DNA of 64,000 nt from Favolaschia claudopus. Taxonomy: Eukaryota; Basidiomycota; Agaricomycetes; Agaricales; Mycenaceae. The stretch is taken from NCBI GenBank assembly GCA_037176885.1, contig JAWWNJ010000170.1, forward strand, positions 62,001-126,000, given 5' to 3'. The translations under genes and the position numbers were made by a program. The notes below the pieces were generated by a model that was not told the origin of the DNA, did not search any database, and worked only from the letters and a program-made list of their open reading frames with translations. Below are positions 6,173 through 45,482 of this stretch, piece after piece. The number at the start of each line of letters is the position of its first letter. The stretch's first letter is position 1.

Positions 6173-7876
6173 CTAGCGAAGAGGAAGAGGACTTAGAAGA
6201 TTTAAACAATAGCTGGAACGCGGAAAATCCGAGACGGTCCAAGCGAATAAATGTTTAAGACTCTTAGAAGTCACTCGAATGGTTAAACACGCAACGGCAA
6301 ACGGGTAATTCTTGTAAAGACAGTAACGAGTGGGTAAACGTAAGGACGGTGGGGAGTTTGACTGGAACTGAGCGGAGGCGCGTACAAACAACGGCGGGCT
6401 TTGTCTAGCTAATGGAAAAGTTAGCACAAATAGCTGTTGCGTCAAAGCAAAGGAAACATACCTGGAAGGGCGGGTGTCGCTTGCCTTAAGGCCGCGCTCG
6501 GCCAGCAGGGCCACCAGTCGCTCCTGTTCATTAACAAGTTGCTCGGCTATAAAGCCAAAATATTCCAAGCGATGGATAATGAAGCCAAACTCGGAGCGGT
6601 TCTCGTATTCAGCACGGATAAGCGCGGCATCGGTAATATGTGCAGGCTTGTGAATAACGAGCTTCTGGGCATGCGCGATAATGTCTTTGGCAGAACCGCT
6701 GCCTTGCTCAGTCACTAAATAAACCGATAAGGCACTTAGCTAGAACTGAATACGGGAAATGGAGACTGACCCTGGGGAGATGGGTTAGCCTCGACGAAGG
6801 AATTAGCGCGGCGGCGCTTGCGGCTAGATTGGGGTACCTCGCTAGCGACCTGGGCAGCCTCCTTGGGATTCGTCTTGCTAATGACCTTCATAGCCTTGTG
6901 GTAAACACGGGCGCTACGGTTAAGGCGAGCAATGCGAATATAAGGAATGCGTACTGTCTCAGGACGAGGAGCCGGTTTAGACTTGGGGATTTTGGGCTAA
7001 GACGAAGGATAGTTAAACAAAATGGGAACACGTCGTGGCTTAGCGAACGTACCAAGGATTTAACTGGAGTCTTAGCTTTACCCTTGCCAGCGTTCTCAAT
7101 AGCGTCAATTTCTGCCATAAAAGCCTCTTCATCGATGGGTTCGGTGGAGGTGTCCTATTATATAATGTAACGGTTAATGAGGGAAAGGTTAAGACGGGTA
7201 AAGGACAGTCCACAACGGATGCGTCGTCCATGGCGACGTCTTCCTCGGGAAGGGCCTCCGCGATAATCTCTACCTCGTCCTCGGTGTCATGGATGTCGGG
7301 GGCGGACTTCTTCTTCTTGCTGCGAGACTAACGGAAGGATGGGGCTTAAATAGGGAAAACGGGAGATGACTAGCTAGAACACACCTTGCGAGTCGGACCC
7401 TGGTTGGCCTCTTTAAGAGCCTCCTCCTTCTCCTGACGGCCTCTCTCGCGCGCGTCTTGCTCGGCGGCAGCCTTGTTGGCACACAAACGATTACGAACCT
7501 TCTGCAGCTCTTCAATATAAGCAAAGACCGCTTCAATAGAGGAAGGGATAGGGCGCTTCTTGTCCTGTGTCGACCAGAATTGACGGAACTTGTTCTGATA
7601 GCGAAAGAAAGCGTCGTAGATAGAAAGAATGGGTGCGACAACTTTGGGATAAGGGAATAAGGAGGCCTTGGACAGATTGCTCGGTTAAAACGATGACTGG
7701 CTAATCTAGCTAAGACGTACCATATGCTCCGCGGTCTGCTCGAATTGTTGCACCGTTCGATGAGGGAGATGGGCTGGGAAATTGCAGGACACCGTGAGCG
7801 TGATGTTCTCCTCGACAACCTTCCAGAGGTTGGCGATTTCCGGGGGAATAGTCTCAGACGCAGTTTCGGCAGACAT
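6173..7876 (-). CDS. Element A antisense gene A1, Lys/Glu-rich protein
   Basis: A spliced minus-strand gene directly downstream of and converging on pol. The first exon runs from the ATG at 7876 (MSAETASETIPPEIANLWKV) to a GTACGT donor near 7720. Later exons, separated by 50-60-nt introns, encode a Lys/Glu-rich coiled region (IPSSIEAVFAYIEELQKVRN), an acidic stretch (DTEDEVEIIAEALPEED), a basic KRRRAN patch and a C-terminal helical segment (RAEYENRSEFGFIIHRLEYF). The last exon may overlap the end of the A pol in antisense. The order of parts resembles gene B2 of element B, so I take it as the A copy of that gene. Function is unknown; the basic patches suggest a nuclear protein. Exact splice sites and the 3' end are uncertain. 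Confidence 0.5.
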
Positions 7877-8544
7877 AGTCGAAGTGGGAAACGAGAAGAG
7901 AAGTGGATACGATACTGAAAGAGGGACATAAGGGGAATAGTGCTTAAATAGCTCGCCCATTGTCTAGCAACTGGGACAGTTGGAATTTAAAAATGGGGGA
8001 GTGAGACTGTGGTTAATCAGGCGGAATTTTCGAACTTTCCTTGATCCTACGGAGCTCCACTTGAATTAAATTAAAGCAACGTCTGACAGTAGCTAAGGGA
8101 TGAAGCGTTTTTGTGATCAGGAACCCTTCCCTATTTGCAAATTAAAGAGCCTGGGCATGGCGCGAACAAGTGTGGTTAAGGCCAAGTGGACGCTGGATAA
8201 ACGATTCGGAGGATAGGCTAAGAAAAGGTCTGACTCCAAAAACGCCCAGCTAGATGCCCTACCTTAGCGAAGTGCTTGTCGGCACCTCAGGACGGCCCCT
8301 GCGAGCTGTCTAGTTAGATCGATCGCAAAGTCAGGCTAATTAGACAAACACATCATTCCGTCGGCTTAATTTAAGAATGAGGTCATGATGGCGGCTAAAG
8401 AATGACACAATCTGTCAATCAAAGGCTTAGCTAGAGTTTATGACCTCAAGAGGACGAAGCCAGACGATTCACAAGCTAAACTAAGTTTAATTGTGAAAAG
8501 GCCATACAAACATCCTACTAGATAACGCCTACTGAGCAAGGTAA
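7877..8544. other. Intergenic part of element A
   Basis: No gene seen. The stretch holds repeated TAGCTA, GGCTAA and CTTAGC motifs characteristic of the non-pol part of element A. Confidence 0.4.
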
Positions 8545-10194
8545 CTAAAAGTCGCTGGCGGCATCCTCCCCAAAGATAAGGGCGGTATCAATGCAGTCAA
8601 GCACCGTGGAGATAATGTCCTTCTCACCGGTGGACTCTTTAGCTAGCTGCTCGCGAACGAGAGAACCTCCGACAGCGCTAAGGCTAGTGTCAACAAAGAT
8701 AGACACGGAGCCCTCGGCTAAGTCAGGGTCAGGGCCGTTAAGGATGGAACGAGGCGACCGGACGGGGATGTCGTCTTTGTACTGGTCGTTGATGAGTGAA
8801 GCGAGGGTGGACCAGTTGAAGGCTGCACTCGAACCATCGGGCATAACACCCTGGATAGATGGGCCAGCGACGGGGTCAGGATTAACGCGAGTGTTGGTTA
8901 AGGGGAAAATCCTAGCCTGATGAGGGGAGTCCGTCGGTCCCATAGGGAGGGGTGCGATCCAAGGAATATCTGGATCAGCCGCCTCCACGGCGGGGAATTT
9001 GAACTCACGCCGCGAACTGTCACAGTGACGGTGTGACGGTGTGGTACCCCTATGATATGGTTATTGAATCACAAACTTGTATCTCTTCGTTCTTCTATGG
9101 GTATCGTGTGTAACTGGATAGGTGTTATGTTTTGCGGGTGGTCGCAAGTTCGATCCTCAGCCTTGTGTTTTTATTTCGTTACCAAACCACTGTACATATT
9201 TAGTTTGAGCCGCGCGGCGAGCGCTAGCTCCACGCAGTGGGCCTCCGCGGCGAGCGGAAAGCGCCGCGCAGCGGTCGGGGTCTGGGGTGGAAAACCCCAG
9301 CCGTCCGGGCCGGCGCCCGCAACACAATACCACTCACAAAACAAAGGAAAAAAGTCTATTCAACACGAAAATACATCGGCTAAGTACTCCGAAATTTTGG
9401 AGCTGCTTCCGGTCGGTCAACAAGAAAATTGTCATACACGCCGCGCGGCAGCTCCACGCAGTGGTGCGCCGCAAATGTCGGCGGGGAGGCCAATTTTTGC
9501 GTTGACCGACCGGAAGCAGTGGAGAAATTGAGGGAAAACACCACTGGTATGCAAGATAAGAGATGTGCGCCAGTGGGAGGGCAATTCCAGCAAAAAAAGG
9601 CGGGCCTGGGGTAAGTAGAGGGAAATTGAGTTCGCGAATGTGACGGCGTGACAGTCACAGTTCGCGGCGTGGGTTTGGTCTTCCCACGGCGGCGCGCTTG
9701 CGAGTAACCAGAGTACGCAAAATAGTACTGACGGGGATTCGACCAGGGAGGGAAGTCTCAATAACCGACAGGATAACGGAGAGCGAGTCGAGAGGGAGAC
9801 GAAGTTAATCTAATGTTGGGTAGATGAAAGAGAGGAAAACGTACTATGGCTACGCATAAAAGCGGCCAAGCCTTTCTCGTGCTCCTCGACAAAACGATTA
9901 ACGTCCATAAACTCGCAAGTTGAGTAGAGTTGAAGGGTGCACTCGCGGCAACCAGTCCCAGCGCGAGTGGGAGTGCAGAGGATACCTGCGTTGACGCAAT
10001 TGCCGCAGGGACGCTTAGGCTAGAAGAGTGGGGGAGTTAGCCAGAGACCTGGGCTTCTAAATAGCGAAGCTGAGACTTACACGGCGCTCCTGGAGCATCA
10101 ACAAGAAATCCACCACTGTAGCTGGGCTAGGCTCGTTTAAGCCAACGACCTGCGCGGCAATGTCGAGTAGAGTAGAATCGGCAGTTGGGGCCAT
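8545..10194 (-). pseudogene. Element A antisense Zn2Cys6-like gene (gamma), MITE-interrupted
   Basis: Exon 1 starts at the ATG at 10194 (MAPTADSTLLDIAAQ) and ends at a GTAAGT donor near 10081. Exon 2 (about 10018-9845) carries CGNCVNAGILC then CRECTLQLYSTC, with spacing C-x2-C-x6-C-x8-C-x2-C-x7-C, which matches the fungal Zn(II)2Cys6 spacing. A third exon holds basic residues (LVTRKRAAVGRPN) and runs into a 666-bp MITE (9671-9006). On the far side an open frame (8988-8545) beginning near AADPDIPW continues to a stop, probably the original C-terminus. The finger loop lacks the usual run of Lys/Arg, so DNA binding is not assured. The MITE probably truncates the protein at a TGA just inside the insertion. 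Confidence 0.55.
9006..9671. mobile_element. MITE with CACGCCGCGAACTGT termini
   Basis: The termini CACGCCGCGAACTGT (9006) and its inverse (ending 9671) form a perfect outer repeat of about 15 bp that continues with mismatches. It is GC-rich with no transposase. A second inverted repeat, GCTTCCGGTCGGTCAAC, lies inside (near 9405 and 9502), suggesting another nested or subterminal structure. No clean target-site duplication was found. Confidence 0.6.
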
Positions 10195-10406: not shown

Positions 10407-10995
10407 TTAAGCTTCCCCTCGACAAATCTCTTGGAGACGCAAGACACAGTACTTGTGGCTTAGCCAACGATAGGCAATCGCGCCAAACTCGAGGCGGTCA
10501 AAATAGGTACGGAGATGAGCAATCTCGGCAGTAGACTCAGCTGCGTCGATACGACGTTTAACTTGGTCGCAACGGGCCATATAAGTCTCCTCCCAAATAG
10601 TCTCCATAATCGACTGTATGTGAAGGTGAAGGAAGGCGTAGGGGAACATCACCCGGCCAAAGCGGGGACCTGTCAAGCGTCTTGGTTAATTGACTTAGCC
10701 GTTAATTAGGCAAGGAACTTACGGAGCGAAGTGAACTCAGGAGAAAGCCGGAACATCTGCCAGCGATAGAACCAACGGAAGCTGCAATGGTTGCAAAGCC
10801 TCTCCTCGCAAGCAGTGCAAGCCCTGCCACAGAAGGAGAACACGCAGTCTTGACCACGGTCTACGCACTGAGTACACGAGTTAAGAGACTAGAAAGGGAT
10901 AAGCCGTTATTTACGAAGGACAAGGATAGGAAGCCCACGGGGTGATCCTCTAGATAAATAAAGGTGTATTCCTCCTCCAGGGAGTTAAAAGGCAT
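10407..10995 (-). CDS. Element A antisense Zn2Cys6-like small protein (delta2)
   Basis: A three-exon gene. Exon 1, from the ATG at 10995, encodes MPFNSLEEEYTFIYLEDHP and ends at GTGGGC. Exon 2 (about 10882-10722) encodes CTQCVDRGQDC...CTACEERLCNHC, spaced C-x2-C-x6-C-x8-C-x2-C-x7-C as in fungal Zn(II)2Cys6 clusters. Exon 3 follows a CAG acceptor just after 10670 and encodes a helical C-terminus ending CRGEA at the stop at 10407. It is a tandem paralogue of delta1 (11756-11110) and shares exon structure with gene B1 in element B. The likely role is zinc binding, possibly DNA binding, but the loop between cysteines 2 and 3 has little basic charge. No damage is seen. Confidence 0.6.
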
Positions 10996-11109: not shown

Positions 11110-11756
11110 TTAGCGCTCAAAAGTACGGCGCGGGTGCATAACTGGGATGGTTAAACCAGGGTCCGAGCGTAGCCAAGCTGCGACTCCAAAAGTCCCTCCC
11201 CCGTGAGCCCGTTCTTGCGCCCTATACACTTCCATGGCTTCTGCAGGCGACGCCTGCCTAACCTTAAGAAGAGCTATCTCAAGCCTCCGTTCGTAAGCGG
11301 CCACGTTCCGCTTAAACAAGGGCTCGAAATAAGCCTCAAGGTGGGACTCTGGGAAGTAGTCTCCGCCGTAGCGGAGTTCTAGATAGTCGAGTCAGGACCT
11401 AGCTAGAAGGCGATAAAAGGGATAAGACAGACCAGTCTTCTCCCATAACTCAGACTTGCGAAAGTCAAGGAAAGCAGGCCACTGGGCGTAAGTGCAGTCC
11501 GACTGGTGGTGGAGCTCGCAGTGTTCGCAGCCTCTGCCCCAGGCCTTGAATTTGCAAGTCAGCCCGAAGACATTGCAAGACTGGCATAAGCTTCCAGCCC
11601 CAGGCTAAGGGAGCGCTCTGGCTAAGCAATATCTAAACGGCAAAAGCAGAGGGAACTTACCTTCTTATCTTCTAAGAAGTAATAGGTGAACTCTTCCTCC
11701 AGCGAAAGATAAGCCCCCAAGGGCTTCAGAGTAGTTGTATGTGGATTGATTGCCAT
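11110..11756 (-). CDS. Element A antisense Zn2Cys6-like small protein (delta1)
   Basis: The ATG at 11756 opens exon 1 (MAINPHTTTLKPLGAYLSLE) ending at a GTAAGT donor. Exon 2 (about 11606-11411) carries CQSCNVFGLTC...CEHCELHHQSDC, spaced C-x2-C-x6-C-x8-C-x2-C-x7-C. Exon 3 encodes a Glu/Arg/Ala-rich helical tail (YERRLEIALLKVRQ) ending PRRTFER at the stop at 11110. The exon boundaries, the LEEEFTYYFLED segment just before the first intron and the cysteine spacing match delta2, so the two are tandem duplicates lying head to tail about 110 bp apart. Function is unknown beyond zinc coordination. The frame appears intact. Confidence 0.6.
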
Positions 11757-12424: not shown

Positions 12425-13124
12425 CTACCCCGATGCCACAGTATCCACCGCCATCTCCGTCCTGCTGGGATCCGCGTCGATCGCCGACAAGGAGGCCTAG
12501 ATAAAGAAGGGGTGGTTGGTTAGTAAAGAGTGGTAGAAGGGGAGAAAGCAAGGTGACTTACTGGTTGCTCCTCGTTGTTCTCGGCAGCGACGGCAGTAGC
12601 GAGCGCCTCGCGGTTGAGTTGAATGGCGTGCTCGTCCTCCTGCAGCTTGGCCGACGGAAGGACCGGCTTCAAGTTGGGGGTCGACGCCGAGTTGAACTGC
12701 TTGACGAGGTGTTCAAATTGAACACGAATGTCGGCCGGGCTGACGTCGACCGTCGACGGCGGAGAAGCGTGACAGGAACTTGTCGAGGCCAACTACCGAG
12801 ATGATGTCGACGGCGTGTGCGTGGTAGTGGCGGAAGGTGGCGGCGAAGTCCTTGGCGGCGGCGCGTGCGATGTTGGCTGTGTCGACATAGTGATGGTAGC
12901 GCGACAGAAGGACTTCCCCAAGGTGGTCGGTGTCTAAACAAAACGGGTGTTAGCTAAAGTCAGAATAAAGGAAGAGAAGTGGGACTTACAGTTTGAGAAC
13001 CTGGCGATGCGAGGGCCCAGTTGGTGGTAGAACTCCACCAGCTCCTCGTCGCACTTCTCAAACTCACACGAGAACCCCTTCCTCTGACAAGCGCTGCACT
13101 TTGCACCAAAGGCCGCTGGGACGC
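12425..13124 (-). pseudogene. C-terminal half of A antisense gene epsilon, cut by element B
   Basis: The exon at 13124-12991 begins in the middle of a zinc cluster (KCSACQRKGFSC) and continues LVEFYHQLGPRIARFSN to a GTAAGT donor. Exons at about 12936 to 12425 encode a helical region (AARAFAATF-like, HYHAHAVDIISVVGLDKFL) and end in TVASG with TAG at 12425. Near 12745 the frame must shift, where GTCGAC is tandemly repeated, so the gene carries a small lesion besides the 30.8-kb insertion. The N-terminal half is at 45482-43891. Reading across the insertion, with one ACGC copy removed, gives C-x2-C-x6-C-x8-C-x2-C-x6-C, a canonical Zn2Cys6 spacing. Confidence 0.65.
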
Positions 13125-14899
13125 TGTAACGACTGGTCATTTTTGCGCGTTATATCTGGCTATTTTAAGTCAAGTGCGGCCCTAAACAACCCAACTACCC
13201 GCCACGACTATAGTCTTACTCGACTATCAATAGGAAGTCAGTACCTCTGTTGGTGACACTAAGGAGGGTCAAAGTGAGCTCCGAGCTGTTGACCGTAAAA
13301 CCCATCACAGGAGAAAGGCATTATATTAATAGCCTACTGCAGTACTATGGATCTGTTCCATAACAGAACCCTCAGAAGAGTGACGAAGAGTCAAGTACTT
13401 GTGTACTACGGACTTAGACGAAGGTCTACAAGGATGTAGGAGGCGCCGCGGGGGCTATCAGAGTCAACATCAGTCAAAAGACAGATGCCGCGGGCTGCCG
13501 ACTATAAATAGACGGCTGGAACAACGCAAAGGGATCTCATACAGGAGATGCCGGTGCTAGGATCAGAAGGCAGAGTCATGGCAAGACATGAGGTCTTTGA
13601 CAGGAGTGATGATGATGTGATGTTGAAGCCGAACCAGTGCGGCAACTTCATTAGAAGTCTATTTCTATATTGGAGTCAGCGCGGATGACTTGGTGGCTTG
13701 ATAAATTGGACAACAGACGAGCCTGTGATATTGCGAGTGAATGGAATGTCCCAAGAATAGTCTTAGGAGTTATTAGAGGCGTTGATGGCACCACCGGAAG
13801 GGTTGCCGCAAGTAACGGATTGACGGGATCACCAATGATGGTGTTCCGCGGGCTTCCGCAATTCAGTGATTCAACAGTGAGAGTCATAAGTGCTGACTTT
13901 CTACCGTTGGATCGACAAGCCAAGAGGCTGCCGAAGGTCCTCCGGGACACCCAAATACCAATATACCATATCTCTACTCAATTGGATCGACATTGCTTAC
14001 TCTGTACTATTTATGTGATGTATTTCTTGGCATTAGTATAAAAGGACCTGTATTTCTCGTTGAGCTGGAGGACATCGCGCTCAGTCTATTGGACAGCGTT
14101 GGTGAACTCAGGCAGCAACGTAGAGGCATATATAAAAGATATTGTCTACTCGTTTGTCTTAATAGAAATTGTATTGAAGTTCAGTTCAAGTGTGAATCTA
14201 AGCATCGTTTCGAGAGTGTTCACCCGCGGAGGCTTTGCTTTCGAGTAGCTTTGTCGTGGCCTTAGTGTGTAAGGAACTGCCTGCCTCTACTGCCCGCGGA
14301 CTGTCTATCTCATTGTGAGGATACGTGTGCTCGAGAGTGAACTAGTATCTCCCTGAGTCTGAGGAAGAGTGGAACTGTCCATCTGCTGAAGCATTGCGTT
14401 GGGACTGCTGGCGCATAACCGGAAGAGATCTGATTAGTCCTCGTCTGAAAGGCTTGTGCTATATAAAGGAGTGTCAAAGGTTCCTGGAATTTGGAGGTTC
14501 AGGTCTATAGCGTAACTGGCGCTATAAGAATTGTGCATTCCGCCGCGGAAACTGTCTGTGGCCATTGTTTCAATCTCGCCCTGATATTCAACTTCGTTGG
14601 GTATCTTGTATCCTACCGTTTATAGTTCCTATTTTTAGGAAAGGTCCGCGGACGGAATCACTTCCATCTACGGTGTGTGAGAGCGTGTTTTGTGCAAGGT
14701 TCTTACTTGCAAGTCGACTTATATCCTCGTCACTGTGACATCTGGATTTCGGATCGACATTTGAGTGTATCTTGTGGAGATATTTGTGTTGTAGTGTTGT
14801 GTGTGTTGGTTGATTGTGTTATATATATATTTTGGTGGTAGATTCTCTGCTGCGCTATATTTAGCACTTCAGTTGATATATTCAAGTGTCAGCGTTACA
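13125..14899 (+). repeat. Element B 5' LTR
   Basis: 1,775 bp, starting TGTAACGACTGGTCAT and ending CAGCGTTACA, with 6-bp inverted termini. It differs from the 3' LTR by two single-base changes noted by eye and by lacking about 22 bp near 14755. Several TATA-like sites occur (14036 TATAAAAGG, 14459 TATATAAAGG). Seven CCGCGG sites lie within it. Confidence 0.9.
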
Positions 14900-14901
14900 T
14901 C

Positions 14902-14919: not shown

Positions 14920-14994
14920 GTTCGGTGGTAATTTGTTGATAAAACAAAACGCGTTGCTGTAGTTGGGAGAGTCTAGAGAAGGGACTTTCCTGGG

Positions 14995-16863: not shown

Positions 16864-16868
16864 TTCCG

Positions 16869-22469: not shown

Positions 22470-22525
22470 AGATTGTGGTGGTATGCGCCTCTGTAATCTT
22501 AAATTAGGACTTCTCCACGGAAGGA

Positions 22526-23790: not shown

Positions 23791-23809
23791 GGGAGGGGGG
23801 AGGGTGATG

Positions 23810-31810: not shown

Positions 31811-32203
31811 TGGCGCGCAGAAGTTCCAAGGTCGGATCTCATTGCACCTCCAGCCCCCCAAAGAATAAATTGGGCCGGTCAAAACGCGAAAATAACAGCA
31901 AAAACGCGAAAATGGGGCTTTTGGTGCTCAGAAGTTCCAAGGTCGGATCTCATCGCACCTCCAGCCCCCAGGAGGGAGGAAAAGCAAGAAAAGGGAAGCC
32001 ATAGACTCACCTAACATGCTTGCCCACAATCCACCCGAAGAAACCGAGCTGAGAGGCCGAGTTGGTGGTGAGGTGGTGGTGGTGAGCTGTGGTGAGTTGT
32101 GTGACGGTCACCATGGTCATGTGAATATCACATGACGTGACGATCCGTGCAACCAACAGCCACATCGCTGCCACGAGGACTTTGCTTCCTCTTGTCCTCT
32201 GTG
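31811..32203. promoter_or_regulatory. Shared divergent promoter of TET/JBP and KDZ transposase
   Basis: Between the two divergent genes. It contains a near-exact duplication of a ~42-bp block including CAGAAGTTCCAAGGTCGG and GCACCTCCAGCCCCC, at about 31817-31860 and 31929-31972. The duplicate is a candidate shared regulatory element. Confidence 0.5.
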
Positions 32204-35200: not shown

Positions 35201-35731
35201 AGTAAGCCTTGGACTCGTCCTGCATATCGACTGGCTATGGACAAGTACTTCAAAATTTGTCGGGCTCGAGAAGAGATTCAGCGGCTGAATGTGGAGATTC
35301 GACGACTGGTGACCTGGATTGATGATGAAGATAAGTTTCTTCGGGGGAAGTATCTTTCCTTCAAGTCGTCAGACCCCTCGCTCGCCATCCAGATAGATCT
35401 ATACCGTCGGAGAAGAGCTCGCTTTGACCGGACACACATGGAACGACTGTGGGCCTTGGCGAAGACTCCAGGTTTCACAGGCTCGGTTTCCCCAGGTGTT
35501 TCATTGGAAAGGCAGGCAGAGCTGGCCAGGGATATGGATGTTGAGATGGAGGAGCCAGGTGAGTTTGACAGGAGATGGAATGAGGGACGTGAAGAGGGAT
35601 GGGAGGATGAAGGCTCAGGTGATGAAGGGGAGGACGCAGAGCAGGAGAAGGTCTCTGGGCTTCTGTACCAGCTGAACATGCTAGCGGTGGATCCAGAAGC
35701 GGGGAGAACCACTGCGGACTTGACTTTGTGA
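32204..35731 (+). CDS. KDZ-family transposase
   Basis: A spliced gene of about ten exons from ATG 32204 (MSSTKKRKFTGSSNSKK) to TGA 35731, ending 40 bp before the right TIR. N-terminal basic region, then RPDYRIRDDRTQN. The KDZ core follows: ELYRVTHSRCPQLSIQAFVK, HACPACMYKL (zinc ligands), the first catalytic Asp in TIDGNNSLKR, FDETGIFLALCRHGFVLVV, the second Asp in FDVGCNFGK, HGHAHNRLCQL (zinc) and the Glu in GLEDLEGCERYFSRSN, then a large helical C-terminus with an acidic tail. This is the RNase H-like fold of KDZ transposases. Introns are 40-60 nt with GTATGT/GTGAGT-type donors. All catalytic residues are present and I see no frameshift. Confidence 0.9.
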
Positions 35732-35771
35732 TGGTATTTCCTTTCCTGAAGCTTTCCCCGTCTGTTTCCCC

Positions 35772-36131
35772 CCCTCCCCCCCTAGTACTTCCTTTTCTGG
35801 CACCCCCCCATAGACGCTGTATTTTTCGGTGATTTTTCATGTATTTTTCATGTATTTTACGGCTATTTTACGATTACATTTCCTTTTTGGGCAGTAGATG
35901 CCTGTGGACCATCTACAAGTCCCAAAGTTATTGAAAGTTAATGAAAGATACTCAAAGTTATTGAGCTAAGCTGTACTTCTCCTCAATATATATATTTGCT
36001 GAAAGTTATTGAAAAGATCTCCGAAAGATATCGACAGGAGCTCTGCGCCACGGTTTTCGCCACTAGTTAGTGTTGTAGGTGGACAATGTTGTACCACACT
36101 TATTACTGGGGTTATGTGGGCAGTATAGGTG
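35772..36131. repeat. KDZ right TIR
   Basis: Inverted copy of the left TIR (23434-23790), ending GCAGTATAGGTG, followed directly by the 8-bp duplication GTGAGACT. Confidence 0.9.
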
Positions 36132-36410: not shown

Positions 36411-36581
36411 GCACTGCTAAGTATATACGAGACACCCGGGGATTTGGACAGTTGCTGGTTGAACAGCAAATATGTGCGGTTGAACGCACGACGATACAAT
36501 AGGGAACACTGAGAGTCGACGGTTTATGTGTCTAAAGAGTGAAGGCACATAGGTATATAGGCCGCGGGAGGACGATCAAGT

Positions 36582-38274
36582 CTAGGAGGCGGAAAGGTTT
36601 AACTGGAGAGCTATAAAAATAAACGCAGAGACATACCGCGGAATTAGCAGGGCGCATAATGGGATCCTCGTTGTCGGCATGATGGATCTTCATGAGCTGC
36701 TCGAGCTGGTCATCCATCTCCTCGTAGGCGCGAAGCCAGTAGCGATACTTGAAGGAAGCGGCGGCCATGTTCCGGCGGAGGTAGCGCTCCCGAGCCTTGA
36801 AACCTTGCGCGTCCAAGTGCTTGAGTTGGTTCTGAGAAACCTTCCAGGTCTTGTTGACATCGTCCGAATGCATGATGGCGATGAGGTCCTTGTCCATGGT
36901 GTCTATAATAAAATTTAGACGAAATTAGATCAAGGAGAAGATGAACTCGTACCAGGGACTTTGGGCTCGTAGTCGAGGTCGACGTCATCCGGTTCGGTAC
37001 GGGCACGCTTGTTGCTGCGGTTGGACACAGGGTTCAACGACAAAGCAGGCTATGAGCGAGAATTAAGCAGAGAAACGGAGTTGACGAATATTTCACGCAC
37101 CATAAGTGGTTCCGCGGGCACCATCTACAACAATTGATGAACGTTAAGCGAGAATTCAACCGTGGGATATGGGTTACGTACCTTCTCGTCCTCGTCAGGA
37201 CAAGTGGAAGATGTGTCGGAGTTCTTCGCCTTGGGGCCTTTGCCCTAATAAAAAGGATGTTATAAAAATAGAACAAAGTGAAAAGGCAAACGCACAGGAA
37301 CTTTACGAACATTTTTGAACATGTCCTCTGGAACGGGATCGTCAATGATGCGCACGGATTTGCCGTCGTCTTGAGGAGCCTTACCGGCAGGGATACCGTC
37401 CTTGGGTTTGACAGGGCAGTTGTCCTGGCCGTGCTGGTGAGAAGAGCAAGACGAACAAACGGAAATCTGGGTGAATGAAGAGGAAAGTGCAGAGGGATAA
37501 AAATAGACGCACAGTGTCGTTCTTGCCCTTTGGCGCACTGTTCTTCTGGAAGGAGAGACCAGGGGGCAAAGAGGAGCCTCCTGCGCGATAGTTGGCTCCC
37601 ATGGCAGCGATATAGAGAGGGTTGATTCTACCTTCGTCCTTGTCGAGATCCATCTGGAGTTGGTTAATACCATAGATAATCTTCGTAACGTCTGAGGAAT
37701 ACCTGATCAGCGACGGAAGCTTCCTCCGCGGAGTCGTCGTCCCCGGAATCGTCGATGACTTCAACAGACTTACCCTGCATTATAGAGGACAGTTCAGGAC
37801 CAGGAGGCATGCGACGAACACGAGAAAGCACCTGTTGAACTTGAGCCTTAGCACGGTGGCCCTTGATGGCTGCCGCGGCCTTGTCGCGCTTGCTATTCTT
37901 GGCGTTGTGGTAGTTGTTGAGCATGCGGTCGATAGCGCCAAGCTGGGAAGTAGGGATCTTGAACTTGGAGATCTTGTACTCGTCCCTCATAGCGTTGGAG
38001 GCGGCAGTAAGAGCATTGACGACCTTCTCGTTGGAGGGGTGCTGAAGGGACTGAGCGAACAGTTTGAAGTCCGACTAAAAATAGACAGAGTTAGCGCGGA
38101 AAGCGTTTGGGCATGCAGAAAATATGGACGAACCGCCGCGGCTGCGAACGTGCTGAGCGTAGAGTGAATGACAGCCGCAGGGAGAGAGTCTCTGAGGGCG
38201 AGGACCCGTTGAAAGTCGCGTTCAGCTTCAAGGATAAGGTTGGACGCTTCGATGAGCGCAGAGCGTGGTGCCAT
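36582..38274 (-). CDS. Element B antisense gene B2
   Basis: A spliced gene starting at ATG 38274 (MAPRSALIEASNLILEAERD). It has at least seven exons with 40-60-nt introns whose acceptors often read CTATTTTTAG. Exons encode a helical region (FKIPTSQLGAIDRMLNNYHN), an acidic segment (VIDDSGDDDSAEEASV), a small Cys/His-bearing piece (CSSCSSHQHGQDNC), an acidic/basic region near 37200-36960 and a C-terminal helical domain (HLDAQGFKARERYLRRNM; YWLRAYEEMDDQLEQL). The order and residues resemble A1 in element A (for example IPSSIEAVFAYIEELQKVRN against the IPTSQLGAIDRML segment). Function unknown. Confidence 0.55.
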
Positions 38275-38279
38275 GGCAT

Positions 38280-39330
38280 GCGATGAAGGCCTGTAGGCGA
38301 CGAAGAAATGAGCAGAGCACAGAAGTCAATTTATAGTTTTGACTAGGAGAGCTTGGTTAAATTATTAATGACCGGCCACGATCGTAAAAACGAGCCAAGG
38401 CTGTTGGTTGCACCTCTAACTGAATTGAATATGCGAGGACGCATCTTTTTTCTTTAGTGAGGGGGAGAATATAGAGCAACAGACAACCGCGGGAGGGTAT
38501 TGCCACCGCGGGCCTTGCAAATTTACCCATAAAGAGACAGGGAAATTTCGTTTTGCTAAAATTAGACGATTTTGAGCTGGAGCGTTGCAAAAGCCAAGTT
38601 GCGGAAGAGTTTTAAGGCTGAATAATGTCGATCGGTTCCTATACGATCAATTTTAAGAGGCAGTTAGGGATGATAGTGGGTATTCTATTAAGCAAGAGAC
38701 TTGTAGAATATACAGGCGGGAGTACAGAACTCTACCTTGAGTACCCACCGCGGTACTTACATGAAAGAGAGTTGGACTGTGCTAAAAATAGACCCGCGGA
38801 AAACTGAAAGAGAAGAGTTGGCTAGAGGAAACTTTTTGACGACTTGAAGAAAAGTGTCAATTAAGTGTCAAGTGTGACTTCTGATTGAAGTACAGGAGAA
38901 ATTGGACTGATTCCAATAAAGTTGAAGAAGGATTTTGACGATGGACTTGGTCAAAATTCAGCCTTCGGCAATCTCCGAAGAATTGATGACGGCATGATGG
39001 CCGGTTGATGTTGACTTAGTGGATTTCTTGGAGACTAAATTCTTACAAAGAATTCACACGGTTGAATTAGAGCATCAATAGGCGCCAGTGGGCGCCAGTG
39101 TATTGGACTCAAGGTAGCGGGTTTACAAACACAGTAAACTAAGCTATGGCTACTGAGTCTAGATATATACAAGGTTGTTTTTTTTGAGTTGGTCTACGAT
39201 ACGGCTGGAGACAACAGCACTACAGAGATATATCTTCGATTGTTTAAGGACTGGAAGAGGACAGTCCGAGTACATTTGTAGGTAAAAAAAACAATTTGCA
39301 AAAAGTCAAGACGAACGCGAGTTGCACGAG
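38280..39330. other. Element B intergenic region
   Basis: No convincing gene. Holds four CCGCGG sites (38490 to 38795), a tandem GGCGCCAGTG pair near 39080 and repeated TAAAAATAGAC-type motifs. Confidence 0.4.
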
Positions 39331-39333
39331 AGT

Positions 39334-41252
39334 TCAGCCGCGGTCCACACCCTTGCCCTTATCAACCGAGGAGGGCGTCTCAACTACCTTCCCATGGCGA
39401 GCCTTTGACGAACCGGGAGATGGTGTCTCCAACAAAGGCGCCGATCCAAACGTAGGAGGCGGGGTTGGTGGCCTGGCTGCAGGAGTAGAAGTCGCAGGAG
39501 CAGGCTTAGATGAAGAGGGCCCCGCGGATGAAAGATCGTCGAAAGAAGCGACGGGACCGAGTTTAGGATCCACCGTCTTCAAGACGCCCTGGAGATCTAA
39601 ATCGGGGATGAGACGAGCGGAGAACTTGGGTTGATAGGTGTAGCTCTCGATGTCGCCCGCTGCGTTCGTTACTGGAATTGCGCCGGAGGTAGCCTCATGA
39701 GCAACGAAGTCTCGTTCCAACTCATAGAACGGCTTCTGCGACAAGACGTGCGCCACAAAATCGCGAGCCAGGTCCGCGCCTTCTTTATCCACAAAGAAGT
39801 CGTTGAACTGCTCGACGGCGAGAGAACGCTCCGCACCGGAGATCGTAAGGGCGGAATCTTGCGCTTGCAAGCGGAGATTGTTGAGAGCACGGACGTGGGC
39901 GAAACTCGTGAACTGAGCATCCTCGTACGCCTGCACAAGACGCTGAAGTGCGGCGGCGATGGTGTGGGGAGCTACCGCGATGAAGGGTCGCATACACTCA
40001 GCGAACCGCTTGAATTCGAGAGGCGTCCAGTTGTGAGAGCACTGATGCTTGCGGTCCGCGCAGCGAGTGCAGACGGACGAACGACCCCCGACGGGCCTGC
40101 ATTCGGCGTAGTTGAGAACGCAATTCAGACAGGGAAAGGCGATCTTGGACAGCATGGGTGGCACCAGGGACGTCTGGACGTAGGACGTAGGGATCTTCAT
40201 ATGCGCTGGAGAAGGCATACCTGGAATAAAAGAAACCAAAGATGAGCCATTGTACGAAGAGAACAGAACCTTCAGACTTACCAGTCTCGGGAATATCAAA
40301 GAACATGTTGATTAACTGAGCACGAGTGGTAATGTCGAAGATAGGACCCACAGGGGTCATAGAACGCTCAGACGGAGGAGCAGGAGTCGGCGAGCGACCA
40401 GGCGAAGGAGAGATTGCCATGCGCGGACGCTTAGCAGGTGGCTCCTCGCTATCTGACTCTTCGCTGTCAGAGAAAGCGGGAACCCGGGGCCTTCTTGTGG
40501 GAACGGTGACGATGCTGGGGACGCAGAACCCCGCACCGTAATGCTTGCCTTTCGGGTCCGCGGCGAGGATGGTGTCTTGAATTTCAGAGGAAGGACGGAG
40601 ATCACGGTATAGCGCGATCAATTCCTCCGCTGCGGCGACGTCGGGAATGACTTTGGCGATGTGACGAGCAGCGCGCGCGAGGGCCCACAGGAATGCCTCG
40701 ACGTTCAAAGGCAGGTTGGGGTGTTCGCGACGATAAGGGGACTAAAAGAATAATAAGTATTGGATTAAGGATGAGAAAGACATAAACACGTACGAGGACT
40801 GGGGTCAACAATACTAAGCTACGGATCTGTTCGTCCGACGGCGGCGGCGGCTTGTGGATAAAAAGCGGGATGAGGTCGCGCGCGAAAGAGTTGTCGAAGG
40901 GAGCCCAGAAAGCAGCAGTGGGATCATCCGAGGGAATCTGCGGTGGTGGTTCGAACAGAGCTGCATGAGTCGAGGGACCGGCAGCGACGACGACAGGCTC
41001 CTCCGCGGGTGGAGACTTGATTTTGCGAGAAGAAGAGGGCGCGGGAGGTTCTGGGGTCGACGCCGCCGACTCTTCTGATTCGGGAAGGTCTGGCTCGACG
41101 TCCTTGGGAACGACGACAGAGGAGCGGCCAGGGCCCACTTTAGCACCAGCCTTATTCTTGCGCGGACGTTTGGCCGCAGAAGTAACCGACGTTCGTGTGG
41201 ATCGACGAGGTGGTTCAGCACTGGCAGCGGAGTCTTTCTTCTTTACGGGCAT
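39334..41252 (-). CDS. Element B antisense gene B3, Zn2Cys6-like protein
   Basis: The largest antisense gene, upstream end facing the 3' LTR. Exon 1 from ATG 41252: basic N-terminus (PPRRSTRTSVTSAAKRPRKN, a likely nuclear signal), Pro/Ser-rich linker, then FWAPFDNSFARDLIPLF. Exon 2 (about 40740-40285): helical region (VEAFLWALARAARHIAKV), basic/acidic SDSEESDSEEPPAKRPR. Exon 3 (about 40219-39334): CLNCVLNYAEC...CTRCADRKHQC, spaced C-x2-C-x6-C-x9-C-x2-C-x6-C, a canonical Zn(II)2Cys6 spacing, then an Ala-rich helical region and a Pro/Ser tail. Layout matches the split gene epsilon of element A (VYWAAFNHPCARSL...). Candidate DNA-binding regulator, though the finger loop is weakly basic. Confidence 0.65.
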
Positions 41253-42080
41253 GGTCCGGCGATGAACACCAGAGGGATGTTGTTGTTGGGAATGAACAAG
41301 TAAAAGAAGGAACCAAGTAGGAGGCTACTCGGCGACGTAAGCGTCGAGGAGCGTGTCAAAGGACCAGGAGAATAACCAAGAAGACGGCCACAGGGTGTAA
41401 GACACTGTGTGTGGTGGTGGTGGAAGGAAGGAAGAAGTGGGCGCTAAAAGTCGCACCCACTCAACCTATAAGTCAGCGCGGACTTAGAGAAATTTTCTCT
41501 AAGTCGCCACGCCTTCAGAGGACTGAATTGAACACTCAGTGACTCACCTTGAAGGAAGAATAGAAGACGAAAGTTAATCTAGGGCGCAGCCACAGTAATT
41601 AGAAGCCAGTATTAAGGTTTGATGAAGAACCTAGGGCTGATTGCCAGGGCAGAGGCGGCCGCGGCGAAAGATAAGTCGGGGGTACAGATTAGATAAAGCG
41701 GAAGTGCAAACACACTTAGGATTAGGGTTGGCGAGAGCCAGGACGGCGAAAATTTGACCAAGTGGAAGAATATAAGGAAAAGAGGTGAAAAACCCCTGTC
41801 CGCATATTTCAGACAGAAAGTGTCAATGACGTCATATGCCGTAATGATTGGCGTCCGCGGAAGCAACTGTCTAAATTAACAGACGGAAGGTCTTAGCGAG
41901 TAGTGCAGGAGGACTTGACGAGAACAAGTCGCTCGAGGAAAAAGGGACAGAGAAGTAGTTTGCAGTTGGTCTAAAAATAGACGTCCGCGGGAGTTGTCAT
42001 CCTTGCGGTCCACTAGATTTAAAGCCAAAAATAAGCACAGGCTTTGGTGCTGGCTATAGACCGAGGACGGTCTAGATTTA
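41253..42080. other. B3 upstream region
   Basis: No further gene. Contains CCGCGG sites (for example near 41650, 41855 and 41990) and the palindromic context GTCTAAAAATAGACGTCC near 41970. It should include the B3 promoter. Confidence 0.4.
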
Positions 42081-42092
42081 GTGAAGGGGAGA
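42081..42092 (+). other. Element B polypurine tract
   Basis: GTGAAGGGGAGA lies immediately before the 3' LTR, the position of the plus-strand primer. Confidence 0.7.
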
Positions 42093-43890
42093 TGTAACGA
42101 CTGGTCATTTTTGCGCGTTATATCTGGCTATTTTAAGTCAAGTGCGGCCCTAAACAACCCAACTACCCGCCACGACTATAGTCTTACTCGACTATCAATA
42201 GGAAGTCAGTACCTCTGTTGGTGACACTAAGGAGGGTCAAAGTGAGCTCCGAGCTGTTGACCGTAAAACCCATCACAGGAGAAAGGCATTATATTAATAG
42301 CCTACTGCAGTACTATGGATCTGTTCCATAACAGAACCCTCAGAAGAGTGACGAAGAGTCAAGTACTTGTGTACTACGGACTTAGACGAAGGTCTACAAG
42401 GATGTAGGAGGCGCCGCGGGGGCTATCAGAGTCAACATCAGTCAAAAGACAGATGCCGCGGGCTGCCGACTATAAATAGACGGCTGGAACAACGGAAAGG
42501 GATCTCATACAGGAGATGCCGGTGCTAGGATCAGAAGGCAGAGTCATGGCAAGACATGAGGTCTTTGACAGGAGTGATGATGATGTGATGTTGAAGCCGA
42601 ACCAGTGCGGCAACTTCATTAGAAGTCTATTTCTATATTGGAGTCAGCGCGGATGACTTGGTGGCTTGATAAATTGGACAACAGACGAGCCTGTGATATT
42701 GCGAGTGAATTGGAATGTCCCAAGAATAGTCTTAGGAGTTATTAGAGGCGTTGATGGCACCACCGGAAGGGTTGCCGCAAGTAACGGATTGACGGGATCA
42801 CCAATGATGGTGTTCCGCGGGCTTCCGCAATTCAGTGATTCAACAGTGAGAGTCATAAGTGCTGACTTTCTACCGTTGGATCGACAAGCCAAGAGGCTGC
42901 CGAAGGTCCTCCGGGACACCCAAATACCAATATACCATATCTCTACTCAATTGGATCGACATTGCTTACTCTGTACTATTTATGTGATGTATTTCTTGGC
43001 ATTAGTATAAAAGGACCTGTATTTCTCGTTGAGCTGGAGGACATCGCGCTCAGTCTATTGGACAGCGTTGGTGAACTCAGGCAGCAACGTAGAGGCATAT
43101 ATAAAAGATATTGTCTACTCGTTTGTCTTAATAGAAATTGTATTGAAGTTCAGTTCAAGTGTGAATCTAAGCATCGTTTCGAGAGTGTTCACCCGCGGAG
43201 GCTTTGCTTTCGAGTAGCTTTGTCGTGGCCTTAGTGTGTAAGGAACTGCCTGCCTCTACTGCCCGCGGACTGTCTATCTCATTGTGAGGATACGTGTGCT
43301 CGAGAGTGAACTAGTATCTCCCTGAGTCTGAGGAAGAGTGGAACTGTCCATCTGCTGAAGCATTGCGTTGGGACTGCTGGCGCATAACCGGAAGAGATCT
43401 GATTAGTCCTCGTCTGAAAGGCTTGTGCTATATAAAGGAGTGTCAAAGGTTCCTGGAATTTGGAGGTTCAGGTCTATAGCGTAACTGGCGCTATAAGAAT
43501 TGTGCATTCCGCCGCGGAAACTGTCTGTGGCCATTGTTTCAATCTCGCCCTGATATTCAACTTCGTTGGGTATCTTGTATCCTACCGTTTATAGTTCCTA
43601 TTTTTAGGAAAGGTCCGCGGACGGAATCACTTCCATCTACGGTGTGTGAGAGCGTGTTTTGTGCAAGGTTCTTACTTGCAAGTCGACTTATATCCTCGTC
43701 ACTGTGACATCTGGATTTCGGATCGAACCCCACGAACTCTTCGAGAGACATTTGAGTGTATCTTGTGGAGATATTTGTGTTGTAGTGTTGTGTGTGTTGG
43801 TTGATTGTGTTATATATATATTTTGGTGGTAGATTCTCTGCTGCGCTATATTTAGCACTTCAGTTGATATATTCAAGTGTCAGCGTTACA
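42093..43890 (+). repeat. Element B 3' LTR
   Basis: 1,798 bp, nearly identical to 13125-14899. It has a ~22-bp segment near 43725-43747 missing from the 5' LTR and one extra T near 42711. Followed by the target duplication ACGC. Confidence 0.9.
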
Positions 43891-45482
43891 ACGCAGGTCT
43901 GGTTAAGCGCAAGGCACTGGATACAGATCCAGCCGGGCTAGAATGGAAGGATAGTTAGTTAAAGAAAGGATCGTTTAGACAAGCAAAAAGGGACTTACGA
44001 TCTTGGCTTTACCGAACTCCAACTCCATGATGGGCGCGGGGTCGAACTTGGGAAGGTGCTCGAAGGGAGGAGGAGGAGGCGCGAGCTCCGGCTTCTGAGA
44101 CACCCTGGTCATCGTTCCAGGCGAGAGGTAGTTGTAGAACCGCGGCGGGGTCTTGCCCTTGAAACGCACACCGTAGAGGTACGGGTGGTTGAGGGGGGTG
44201 ACGATGTTGAAAGGTGCTGGAGGGTCGAAGTCCTCTGACGGGACTTCAGTCAGTACAAGTAAAGGTTAAGTCAGTAAAAAAGCAGACTTACCGGAGCCTG
44301 TGACCGACGCGTTCAGAAGGCGGTTTTGGAAAACTTGGACGATCTGCTTGGAGAAAGCTTGGATCTCGCTTTGAGTCGGCATAGTCGTCTTGGCGTTGGG
44401 GTACTGAATAGAACCAAGCTTGGCCCGACGAGGGATGGTGAAGCCCTGGCGACCGTCAACGACCACGACGGGCGCGTTGGAGGCAACTTCGTCCTCGCCA
44501 TCGCTATCAGCCTAGAAGGAGAACAAGGTTAGCCAAGTAAGAGGAGGGCGGTCTAGCTAAGAAAGGCTTACCTGGACGGACTCTTGCTCCTTCGACTTGA
44601 CTACCTCGGTCTCCCCGCTATCCCCAAACTTGCGCTTCAGGCTCTTGCCAGCCTGGGCAGACCTAGATAAGGGAAAAAGGGCGGGGGTTAGCTAAAGGAG
44701 GCTGGCCAAAGAGATAGGGGACTTACGACGAACGAGTCTGAGGGACGTCAATCCCGTCAAAGAAACGACGAATGGGAGGGTCACGAACCTCGGGTTTCGC
44801 TGAGAACAAGGGGCGCGGCTTGACGGGCGGCGAAGAAGTCGATGCAGACTGGGCGTCCGCTTTCTTGGGGTCCTTCGCGTCAATGGGTGAAGGCTCCTTG
44901 AAAACGGAGCGACGCTTGATTGGAACGGGCGGCTCATATGGTGGGATCTCGAGCTTAGTGAACGGCGACGTCTTGACGATCTCCTGCTTGATGATGGAGA
45001 AAAAGGGAGGGGTCGACCAGTCGTACTGAGTGAGGTTGAGGTTCGGCGCAGCGGCGAACGGGATCTTGAAGTTGTCGGGGAGGACGGGGTACTAGAGAGA
45101 GTTAGAAATAAAAGGCAAAAGGGAAAATCGTGAAGCGTACCTCGGCGTAATCCTCGGGCAGAGCCTGCACAATGGAGCCCCAGAAGTTCGGGACGACGTC
45201 CAAGAACTCGAGGAGGTTGGCCATCAAGCCGTTCCAGGCGTGGCATTCCTCCGGTTGGGACTCCCAAATCTGCTCGTCGTACGCGTACTCAACCGCTGGA
45301 AGGGCTTGGCCGAATGCAACGTAGGCGACCTCTTTCTCGACGGGTACGGAAGCGGACAGGAGGATTTTGTTGAGTGAACGAGCGCAAGGGTGGTTGAACG
45401 CGGCCCAGTAGACAAGAGAAGGGTCGATCTCGGGTGACGCAGGGCGAGGAGCGACTTTGGCGGGGACACGACGACCAGACAT
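43891..45482 (-). pseudogene. N-terminal half of A antisense gene epsilon
   Basis: From ATG 45482 (MSGRRVPAKVAPRPASPEID), followed by VYWAAFNHPCARSLNKILL, then short exons: one at about 45090-44730 (FKIPFAAAPNLNLTQYDWST...), others near 44660-44580, 44515-44293, and 44237-44000 (RFYNYLSPGTMTRVSQKPEL). The last exon, near 43944-43891, encodes CIQCLALNQTC and is cut by element B at the ACGC duplication. The second half of the zinc cluster resumes at 13124. Introns are 45-60 nt. Homologous in layout to B3. A frameshift in the other half suggests it was decaying anyway. Confidence 0.6.

Follow-up and report, generated by a model that had tools for sequence, protein, structure and literature searches.

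Antisense intron-bearing genes between pol and the 3' LTR in Ty3/Gypsy elements of Favolaschia claudopus, including a multi-version gene next to the LTR

Two related LTR retrotransposons, A and B, were found in the analyzed stretch of 64,000 nucleotides from Favolaschia claudopus (the window). As a preliminary description of this DNA had claimed, both carry antisense, intron-bearing genes, predicted to be spliced, between pol and the 3' LTR, five in A (A1, gamma, delta1, delta2 and epsilon) and three in B (B1, B2 and B3). Comparisons among copies showed that these antisense gene sets, with their conserved intron sites, are kept intact by purifying selection. Moreover, the gene adjoining the 3' LTR, B3 in B and epsilon in A, exists in several versions. 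This hyperdivergence is the strongest feature of the cassettes and is new beyond the preliminary description.

Elements A and B and their antisense cassettes

Element B (13125-43890) is inserted within element A, in exon 6 of the epsilon gene, with ACGC at either edge of B, and the sequence of A picks up after B at 43891-43893. The gene models were derived from the divergence between copies and then placed in window coordinates. The features are:

3985-6258, plus strand: 3' part of A pol (RNase H, integrase), two ORFs (3985-5427, 5428-6258)
6462-7876, minus strand: A1, at least six exons (7876-7721, 7666-7385, 7327-7214, 7154-7053, 6996-6771, 6714-6462)
8545-10194, minus strand: gamma, three exons (10194-10081; 10019-9845, with the six-Cys cluster; the third to 8545)
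10407-10995, minus strand: delta1, three exons (10995-10939; 10888-10723, cluster; 10669-10407), open in the window
11110-11756, minus strand: delta2, three exons (11756-11661; 11604-11433, cluster; 11378-11110), open in the window
12426-13124, minus strand: 3' part of epsilon, remainder of exon 6 (to 12990), exon 7 (12933-12562), exon 8 (12496-12426)
13125-14899, plus strand: 5' LTR of B, ends TGTAACG...CGTTACA
14977-22469, plus strand: gag-protease-pol stretch of B, from Pfam scan and ORFs
14977-16863, plus strand: B gag, zinc knuckle by eye, no Pfam match
16794-18245, plus strand: B protease ORF (PF13975, PF13650)
18732-22469, plus strand: B pol, RVT_1 under the cut-off (E 5.6e-4), RT_RNaseH and Integrase_H2C2 above it
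22466-23281, minus strand: B1, exons 23281-23090 (acidic), 23022-22872 (Cys cluster), 22818-22545, 22490-22466, open in the window
23434-36131, no strand assigned: 12.7-kb TIR element with a KDZ transposase domain, between B1 and B2
36532-38274, minus strand: B2, exons 38274-38134, 38074-37703, 37653-37513, 37466-37296, 37244-37182, 37124-37101, 37049-36953, 36902-36532
38950-41850 (approximate edges), no strand assigned: hyperdivergent block around B3, from copy comparison
39334-41252, minus strand: B3, exons 41252-40794, 40741-40282, 40220-39334, cluster at 40039-40131
42093-43890, plus strand: 3' LTR of B, with a GGGGAGA purine tract just before it
43891-45482, minus strand: 5' part of epsilon, exons 1-5 (45482-45141, 45091-44727, 44662-44572, 44511-44292, 44234-43999), exon 6 start at 43937
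46115-46669, plus strand: start of the A 3' LTR (TGATAAGC...), cut by element C
46670-54277: element C, interrupting the A 3' LTR, with A sequence back at 54277

B has all the features of a Ty3/Gypsy element, with TG...CA direct repeats and gag, protease and RT-RNase H-integrase in that order, and its two LTRs are 98.6% identical to each other. The same check on A covered the 3' part of pol, which is 54.7% identical to B pol across 741 aa, and the start of the LTR. The A of the window is a damaged copy: its pol stretch is in pieces, its epsilon is kept in two parts by B and its gamma is disrupted by an insert of about 690 bp (at about 8994-9683). The elements had been described as giant. B does span 30.8 kb in the window, but solely owing to the nested 12.7-kb element, and the LTR-LTR spacing was 15.6-16.3 kb in 8 of the 10 B pairs among the matches listed. 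The nested element possesses a KDZ domain (PF18758, E 9e-37), TIRs of 326-366 nt and an ORF that, by eye, we take to be TET/JBP-like, the one dioxygenase match staying under the cut-off (PF13640, E 0.058). B copies without the KDZ element still have the cassette, which rules out that the cassette is part of it.

The product of A1 is helical-looking and basic/acidic, and its modelled exons are stop-free in the window. The B2 model, of eight exons with an uncertain 3' end, contains a CCHC-type knuckle (CSSCSSHQHGQDNC). By eye, delta2 resembles delta1 in layout and in the end of exon 1. The B3 model equals an NCBI-annotated protein (P0003, on the contig of copy L029) over all 597 residues, and this annotation appears to back B3 as a gene.

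The intact motif C-x2-C-x6-C-x8/9-C-x2-C-x6/7-C occurred four times in the six frames of the window, always antisense (delta1, delta2, gamma and B3), and in none of 100 first-order Markov simulations of the window. The motif of epsilon is whole in other copies; in the window its exon took the B insertion. The cluster of B1 has x8 rather than x6 between the second and third Cys. The Cys positions were kept in 416 of 417 cells across copies (epsilon, delta2, gamma, B3 and B1). GAL4 matches the PROSITE-style Zn2Cys6 pattern. The zinc-cluster label of the preliminary description held for the spacing, as epsilon, delta1, delta2, gamma and B3 fit the Zn2Cys6 spacing C-x2-C-x6-C-x5-12-C-x2-C-x6-8-C (PF00172, PS00463) and B1 fails it. 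The basic residues typical of fungal zinc-cluster factors are missing, however: none of the six clusters matched the PROSITE-style basic-residue pattern between the second and third Cys. In addition, no cassette cluster scored above threshold with PF00172, for which delta2 gave only a partial match (E 0.46).

In epsilon, delta1, delta2, gamma and B1, one of the two introns beside the cluster exon is in phase 0 and the other in phase 1. Because the flanking intron phases agree, gene structure supports a probable common descent of this exon. The proposed pairing of A and B genes stood to that extent for the deltas and B1, but whole-protein homology was undetectable by hhalign for A1 with B2 (E 0.34, probability 0.2%) and for epsilon with B3 (E 0.014, probability 3.2%). 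Pfam scans of the cassette models found no bZIP domain. AlphaFold2 gave no usable fold for B3, with a mean pLDDT of 37.5 for exon 3 (3 sequences) and 37.2 for the full length (5 sequences), and no meaningful match to the B3 profile was found among PDB sequences (best E 0.15). The protein database yielded two matches to B3 exon 3 and five to the B3 profile, for which the 7995 candidates with most shared words were scored; all were F. claudopus proteins. These matches do not imply absence from other fungi, because transposon genes are often masked in annotation. One of the five, P0006, is B3-like in its N-terminal part alone and appears mis-modelled. The same database gave no match to gamma.

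Selection, splice sites and retention across copies

The dN/dS ratios of the cassette genes over copies were mostly 0.04-0.2, far below the value near 1 that would speak against function. Between the window and copy L016, they were 0.05 for delta2, 0.05 for delta1 exon 3, 0.14 for gamma, 0.19 for A1 and 0.14 for epsilon exons 1-5; epsilon of L009, L013 and L014 and the deltas of L014 were unalignable. The ratios of B3 in four copies against L029 were 0.05-0.14. Among 15 A copies, each of the five genes had a mean dN / mean dS of 0.05-0.15, calculated from 91 pairs for the deltas and 105 for the others. These copies, picked by pol alone, were 15 of the 19 fetched, with the window excluded; left out were L018, with a deletion in epsilon, L009, with another epsilon version, and L013 and L014, which run into other sequence. 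Counter-cases were the last modelled B2 exon, with ratios of 0.52-1.05 in three copies and five nonsynonymous and no synonymous changes in a fourth, and gamma in one pair (L022), with 0.98 on 8 changes. Some copies carried a stop or a frame-changing indel: L011 in A1, L019 and L027 in epsilon, and L023 and L025 in gamma.

Conserved antisense introns had been proposed as well, and donor and acceptor sites were kept in 377 of 381 cells. In a frame control of 13 exon comparisons (B3, gamma, A1, delta2 and epsilon), the modelled frame was open with ratios of 0.05-0.15, and of the six frames it alone was both open and low in dN/dS; the four frames other than it and the mirror sense frame were mostly above 1. 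It is highly improbable that the antisense frames are not genes but by-products of codon bias or antisense regulatory RNA. Regulatory antisense RNA is known in retroviruses (PMC10186651) and discussed for plants (PMC7264820), some exons face ORFs of 150-214 aa on the sense strand, and dN/dS is low in the mirror sense frame too. However, the mirror frame has 3-14 stops, in all 13 comparisons, whereas the modelled antisense frame is open, the splice sites are conserved and one model equals an annotated protein. The dN/dS ratios and the six-frame control contradict a codon artefact.

The genome holds at least 31 pol ends of A, 73 of B and 30 of D, a third family that carries diverged counterparts of the cassette. 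In A, gamma was found within 3.5 kb of the pol end at 31 of 31 listed places, with the full exon-3 frame open at 26. In B, B2 was found within 6.5 kb at 64 of 73 listed places; the B of the window is among the nine without it, solely because of its 12.7-kb insert. Retention in two families, as previously claimed, is thus borne out. Among the pol matches listed, D retained the cassette in 28 of 30, and its cassette matches were antisense to pol in all 26 elements entered. The sister families B and D were 85-87% identical in pol, mostly 44-46% in B1, 30-38% in B2 and 34-41% in B3 (30 of 31). In a family E (pol 66-67%), B2 was undetected in 39 of 39 among the listed matches and no B1 match was placed. 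The B, D and E pol counts rest on 142 of 150 listed matches, the best 150 of 766 candidates. Because contigs C13 and C25 share match positions near their starts, the assembly may hold both nuclei, and copy counts may be inflated. Taken together, the functional reading of the cassette in the preliminary description is supported.

The hypervariable gene next to the 3' LTR

The block around B3 differed by a median of 24% between B copies, compared with 2.1% in its flanks (45 pairs of 10 copies, chosen to span the B3 identities and hence a non-random sample of block divergence; L030 was omitted, as its B3 is one base off that of L029). Block and flank distances were uncorrelated (rho 0.06, 45 pairs). 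Among 63 B copies whose B2 exon was at least 94% identical, found as a piece only in three of them, the B3 exon fell into three classes of identity, 87-100% (20 copies), 71-82% (22 copies) and 27-32% (21 copies). This pairing took in 106 of 124 B3 and 105 of 113 B2 matches, shorter secondary pieces being left out; a B3 partner was present for 97 of the 105 B2, and five of the eight without were B copies. Moreover, of the 40 LTRs listed as closest to those of B, with 40 of 587 candidates scored, 16 adjoin a B3, with identities of 27-100% (65 of 124 B3 places were paired, family D and pieces being left out). LTRs and flanks were about 97% identical whatever the B3 version, where checked. The fetched versions, of 71% and up, are under purifying selection, and those of 27-32% are known from open frames alone.

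Similar to B3 in B, epsilon is the divergent gene in A. Its median dS was 0.168, versus 0.013 for gamma, 0.040 for A1, 0.040 for delta1 and 0.025 for delta2, and it had the top dS in 97 of 105 pairs. In three A copies, epsilon exon 7 was at 41-43% while gamma was at 97%. The divergent region of A is less sharply edged, as L022 and L026 fall to 0.78-0.89 between epsilon and the LTR as well.

The block (4490 differences) and the backbone (215 differences) have similar substitution spectra, which rules out a hypermutation device such as a diversity-generating retroelement or a RIP-like process. Since dN/dS inside B3 is low, its divergence is old, and positive selection was not directly seen. Because the B3 versions are unlinked to LTR differences, the target of B3, if it is the own element, would not be a co-varying LTR sequence; it would have to be a protein or a site within the block itself.

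Candidate functions and known systems

We tentatively favor the reading, drawn from the sequences, that the cassettes encode trans-acting accessory regulators, with B3/epsilon as a class-specific self-recognition factor. Antisense transcripts would start presumably in or near the 3' LTR, and their spliced mRNAs would encode three kinds of product: small nuclear proteins that have a Cys6 metal cluster (delta, gamma and B1), a protein of helical or knuckle type (A1/B2) and the B3/epsilon protein of 600 aa. As introns of the opposite strand, the cassette introns would stay in the sense genomic RNA and thus persist through every round of reverse transcription. Like phage immunity repressors or the Ty1 self-restriction factor, B3/epsilon would control the activity of elements with the same version, and a copy with a rarer version would escape control, so that several old versions would be held at similar frequency while recombination homogenises the rest of the element. 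The cassette might even be a retrotransposon immunity locus, in which B3/epsilon shuts down incoming copies of the same version and antisense coding lets the introns survive; we consider this doubtful. If it were true, rare versions would gain, and a handful of ancient versions would coexist on a single recombining backbone, as the retroelement equivalent of phage immunity regions.

The accessory genes may instead be real and useful while the B3/epsilon versions persist without balancing selection, because they differ too much for recombination with one another, whereas their surroundings are homogenised by template switching between co-packaged RNAs. The B copies examined share similar block edges, dN/dS is low in B3, and the more similar B3s (e.g., L036) show stepwise identity to L029, as recombination gives. 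This account is nevertheless somewhat unlikely, as drift alone is not expected to give the near-even 20:22:21 split, nor the same pattern at the same gene position in a second family. By analogy with VANC of the Arabidopsis VANDAL elements, the cassette might also encode anti-silencing proteins that counter chromatin or RNA silencing, with B3/epsilon diversified to escape host counter-measures. The accessory genes do diverge far more than pol between B and D, and related VANC proteins are described as acting on different element spectra (PMC5735166). However, VANC targets vary between related elements according to the same source, whereas the LTRs and flanks here are near-constant where checked, and no DNA-binding domain was recognised in Pfam scans or the PDB profile search, which makes this reading unlikely. 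That a single gene varies while the remainder is constant would also fit integration targeting, in which the pre-integration complex would be tethered to chromatin by B3/epsilon and the versions would persist via different genomic niches; we regard this as improbable.

For the favored reading of accessory regulators, the divergence of B3/epsilon marks which gene may be the specificity module. With three families and more than 100 copies in one genome, the function of antisense accessory genes is directly testable, and a many-version gene in an otherwise constant retrotransposon would clearly exemplify competition, within one genome, among the copies of one transposon.

VANDAL elements are DNA transposons, unlike the LTR elements here. 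Similar to B3/epsilon, their VANC in Arabidopsis is a transposon accessory protein that diversifies between related elements (PMC5735166), but VANC targets in the element vary and the backbone here is constant where checked. Fungal KDZ/TET-JBP DNA transposons also carry accessory genes (PMC12730594), whereas the cassette genes here lie outside the nested KDZ element. Extra ORFs of bdelloid rotifer LTR elements (PMC5408684) and accessory genes of Ectocarpus transposons (PMC12477816) are a different thing, as far as those accounts go. Ty1 copy number control in yeast (p22/Gag) is likewise a case of a retroelement that controls itself and has a divergent module which recombination moves, as gag differs between canonical Ty1 and Ty1' (PMC7055915); the module there is sense gag, whereas here it would be an antisense gene of its own, whose versions share as little as 27% amino-acid identity. 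Among retroviruses, the 3' LTR drives antisense expression of HBZ (HTLV-1), APH-2 and ASP (HIV-1); splicing is described for the transcripts of HBZ and APH-2, and the nuclear HBZ protein counteracts sense transcription (PMC10186651). In contrast, the elements here are not retroviruses and have several antisense genes, and no bZIP was found in Pfam scans.

In the literature surveyed, mainly open-access, no fungal case of antisense genes in LTR elements was found; the word "antisense" is absent from the available text of "LTR Retrotransposons in Fungi" (PMC3248453), and the words fungi and intron from the main text of the review PMC7264820. That review describes the plant aORF-3R elements (maize Grande gene23, rice RIRE2 and Silene Retand), LTR retrotransposons with antisense additional ORFs of function given as unknown and, for Grande, reported nuclear localisation. 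Similar to them, the elements here have antisense coding genes between pol and the 3' LTR in most copies. Different from them, however, they belong to a basidiomycete and each hold several such genes (five in A, three in B) that are rich in conserved introns, one of the genes existing in multiple versions.

Nested elements and their surroundings

The genome surveyed for copies was that of F. claudopus (Agaricales, Mycenaceae), which comprises 264.6 Mb in 460 contigs. The preliminary description had called elements A and B giant. Both were real Ty3 elements, but the size of B results partly from nesting, because 8 of the 10 B LTR pairs examined were only 15.6–16.3 kb apart.

Mobile elements of the window
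6258: pol end of element A
13125–14899 and 42093–43890: LTRs of element B, 98.6% identical
23434–36131: TIR element of 12.7 kb inside B, between B1 and B2; TIRs of 326–366 nt, about 95%
33812–34330, plus strand: KDZ transposase domain of the TIR element
46670–54277, minus strand: element C, a Ty3 element of 7.6 kb; LTRs of 365 bp, 99.7% identical

Element B is nested in A, as other A copies read through the site of B and then match the window from 43893. The 3' LTR of A starts at 46115 and element C begins 555 bp past that start; most likely, element C was inserted inside this LTR. No antisense cassette was apparent in the ORF list of element C.

The TIR element also contains an antisense dioxygenase-like ORF (30124–31029), which is TET/JBP-like by eye. 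At 1752–3985, the upstream pol of A is broken, with an RT-like part followed by a zinc-knuckle protein (2987–3508) that by eye resembles a LINE ORF1 fragment. At 54277–56048, past the remainder of the A LTR, a sense gag-like ORF (55146–56048) overlaps a match to the sequence downstream of the A LTR in the element copy L028; the window therefore contains either a second copy of A that is truncated or an LTR that is shared. Finally, a pair of 469-bp inverted repeats at 56818–60248, 99.4% complementary and 2.5 kb apart, is probably a recent non-autonomous DNA transposon.

Antisense genes, their constraint and their retention

Gene models were built from the divergence among copies, in which synonymous changes mark the frame and GT-AG introns of 46–67 bp join the frames. 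The predicted cassettes consist of A1, gamma, delta1, delta2, and epsilon in A and of B1, B2, and B3 in B. Splice donors and acceptors were conserved in 377 of 381 cells across copies (for epsilon, without copies L009, L013, and L014). The B3 model of L029, the B reference copy, was identical over all 597 residues to the NCBI-annotated protein P0003, whose contig is equally long, a match that supports the model by independent annotation and not by an RNA result. In searches of the protein database with B3 and gamma, every match among the candidates scored was a protein of F. claudopus, and structure prediction for B3 (pLDDT 37) gave no usable structure. In the window, gamma exon 3 carries an insert of ~690 bp (8994–9683) that is missing from the compared A copies and includes an imperfect inverted repeat (9403–9519). 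At 37296–37466, B2 possesses a CCHC-type knuckle, CSSCSSHQHGQDNC, which was found in all six distinct B2 proteins compared.

As expected of the functional genes proposed in the preliminary description, dN/dS across copies was mostly far under 1, the last B2 exon being an exception. Between the window and L016, the A reference copy, the ratios were 0.05 for delta2 and delta1 exon 3, 0.14 for gamma and epsilon exons 1–5, and 0.19 for A1. Those of B3 in four copies compared with L029 ranged from 0.05 to 0.14, and those of B1 and B2 were also low, on few changes. For the last B2 exon, whose model may be wrong, dN/dS was 0.52–1.05 in three copies, and a fourth copy had 5 nonsynonymous and 0 synonymous changes. 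The frame was controlled by six-frame scoring in 13 exon comparisons (five of B3 exon 3, two each of gamma exon 3, A1 exon 2, and delta2 exon 3, and one each of epsilon exons 2 and 5). Only the modelled frame was both open and low in dN/dS; the mirror sense frame was low as well but contained 3–14 stops.

The cassette genes were also retained in related copies. In A, gamma was found at most 3.5 kb from the pol end at 31 of 31 places, with the whole exon-3 frame open at 26. Among the pol matches listed, B2 was within 6.5 kb of 64 of the 73 pol ends of B, a diverged B2 was present at 28 of the 30 pol ends of D (the sister family of B, pol 85–87% identical), and B2 was detectable at 0 of the 39 pol ends of E (pol 66–67% identical). 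The identities of the D counterparts were mostly 44–46% for B1, 30–38% for B2, and 34–41% for B3 in 30 of 31. Moreover, the D cassette matches were antisense to pol in all 26 elements entered. Since diverged B1, B2, and B3 are present antisense in D, three families (A, B, and D) carry the cassette. The accessory proteins of B and D have diverged much further than pol.

Six-Cys clusters and gene counterparts

The window contains four intact six-Cys motifs, all antisense, compared with 0 of 100 simulated windows. Across the copies of epsilon, delta2, gamma, B3, and B1, 416 of 417 cells kept the cluster cysteine. A phase-0 and a phase-1 intron border the cluster exon of five genes (epsilon, delta1, delta2, gamma, and B1), and these shared borders argue that the five exons descend from one exon older than the split of A and B. 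B3 differs in that its cluster sits within the long final exon. Profile–profile comparison of the cassette genes revealed weak, cluster-centred similarity (best gamma–B1, 48% probability, and delta2–gamma, 43%) and no similarity between A1 and B2. Thus, the pairing of A and B genes by layout proposed earlier is plausible but mostly unproven by sequence. The cassette clusters, apart from that of B1, share the Cys spacing of fungal Zn2Cys6 proteins; however, they were not assigned to these proteins because the basic signature is absent and no profile score was above the cut-off.

Divergent versions of B3 and epsilon

Compared with L029, the B copies were mostly 96–100% identical along the compared stretch, except for one block whose edges were alike in all copies examined. 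This block consists of B3 and its intergenic edges, and identity drops to 55–75% in the more distant versions. Among 10 B copies, the median difference was 24% in the block versus 2.1% in the flanks, and the two were uncorrelated. The substitution spectrum of the block was ordinary. Similarly, epsilon was the lowest-identity stretch of the main A subfamily, with less clean edges; two copies, L022 and L026, were also low between epsilon and the LTR. In 105 pairs of 15 A copies picked regardless of epsilon, the median dS was 0.168 for epsilon versus 0.013–0.040 for A1, gamma, delta1, and delta2; in 97 pairs, epsilon had the highest dS of the five. In three A copies, epsilon exon 7 was 41–43% identical, yet gamma was 97% identical.

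Among 63 B copies with B2 at ≥94% identity (another 5 B2 in this range lacked a B3 alongside), B3 exon 3 was 87–100% identical to that of the window in 20, 71–82% in 22, and 27–32% in 21. These counts may include allelic doubles because contigs C13 and C25 have cassette and pol matches at the same coordinates near both contig starts, a pattern that points to haplotype copies or to duplication of a chromosome end. The B3 versions compared as DNA are old and constrained, given their dN/dS of 0.05–0.14 relative to L029, and have no in-frame stops at mapped codons; the versions at 27–32% are known as open frames only, and examples of the most divergent lie near C48:1441448 and C166:278397. The B3 of copy L035 looks frame-shifted, as its automatic model switches frame and its match ends at residue 234. 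The automatic B3 models of L031, L033, and L038 retained the second intron.

Old versions at similar frequency amid homogenised surroundings are the pattern of a specificity factor, the putative role of B3 and epsilon. Such a candidate recognition factor would act through its own version, in self-control and superinfection control. Among the best 40 LTRs closest to those of B, 16 adjoin a B3, and the B3 identities beside them were 100, 96, 96, 91, 91, 90, 79, 76 (five times), 31, 31, 28, and 27%. Because the LTRs examined do not vary with the B3 version, a version-specific recognition factor is favoured over an LTR-reading factor as the putative role. It is conceivable, though doubtful, that the versions are neutral and persist because they do not recombine with one another within the block. 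That the cassette encodes anti-silencing proteins appears unlikely, and an integration-targeting role of B3 and epsilon is still more improbable.

As putative version-specific recognition factors, B3 and epsilon belong to a cassette whose layout has parallels elsewhere. With their introns, their conservation, and their position near a 3' LTR, the antisense genes described here resemble the additional antisense ORFs of plant elements (PMC7264820) and, in layout, retroviral HBZ (PMC10186651).
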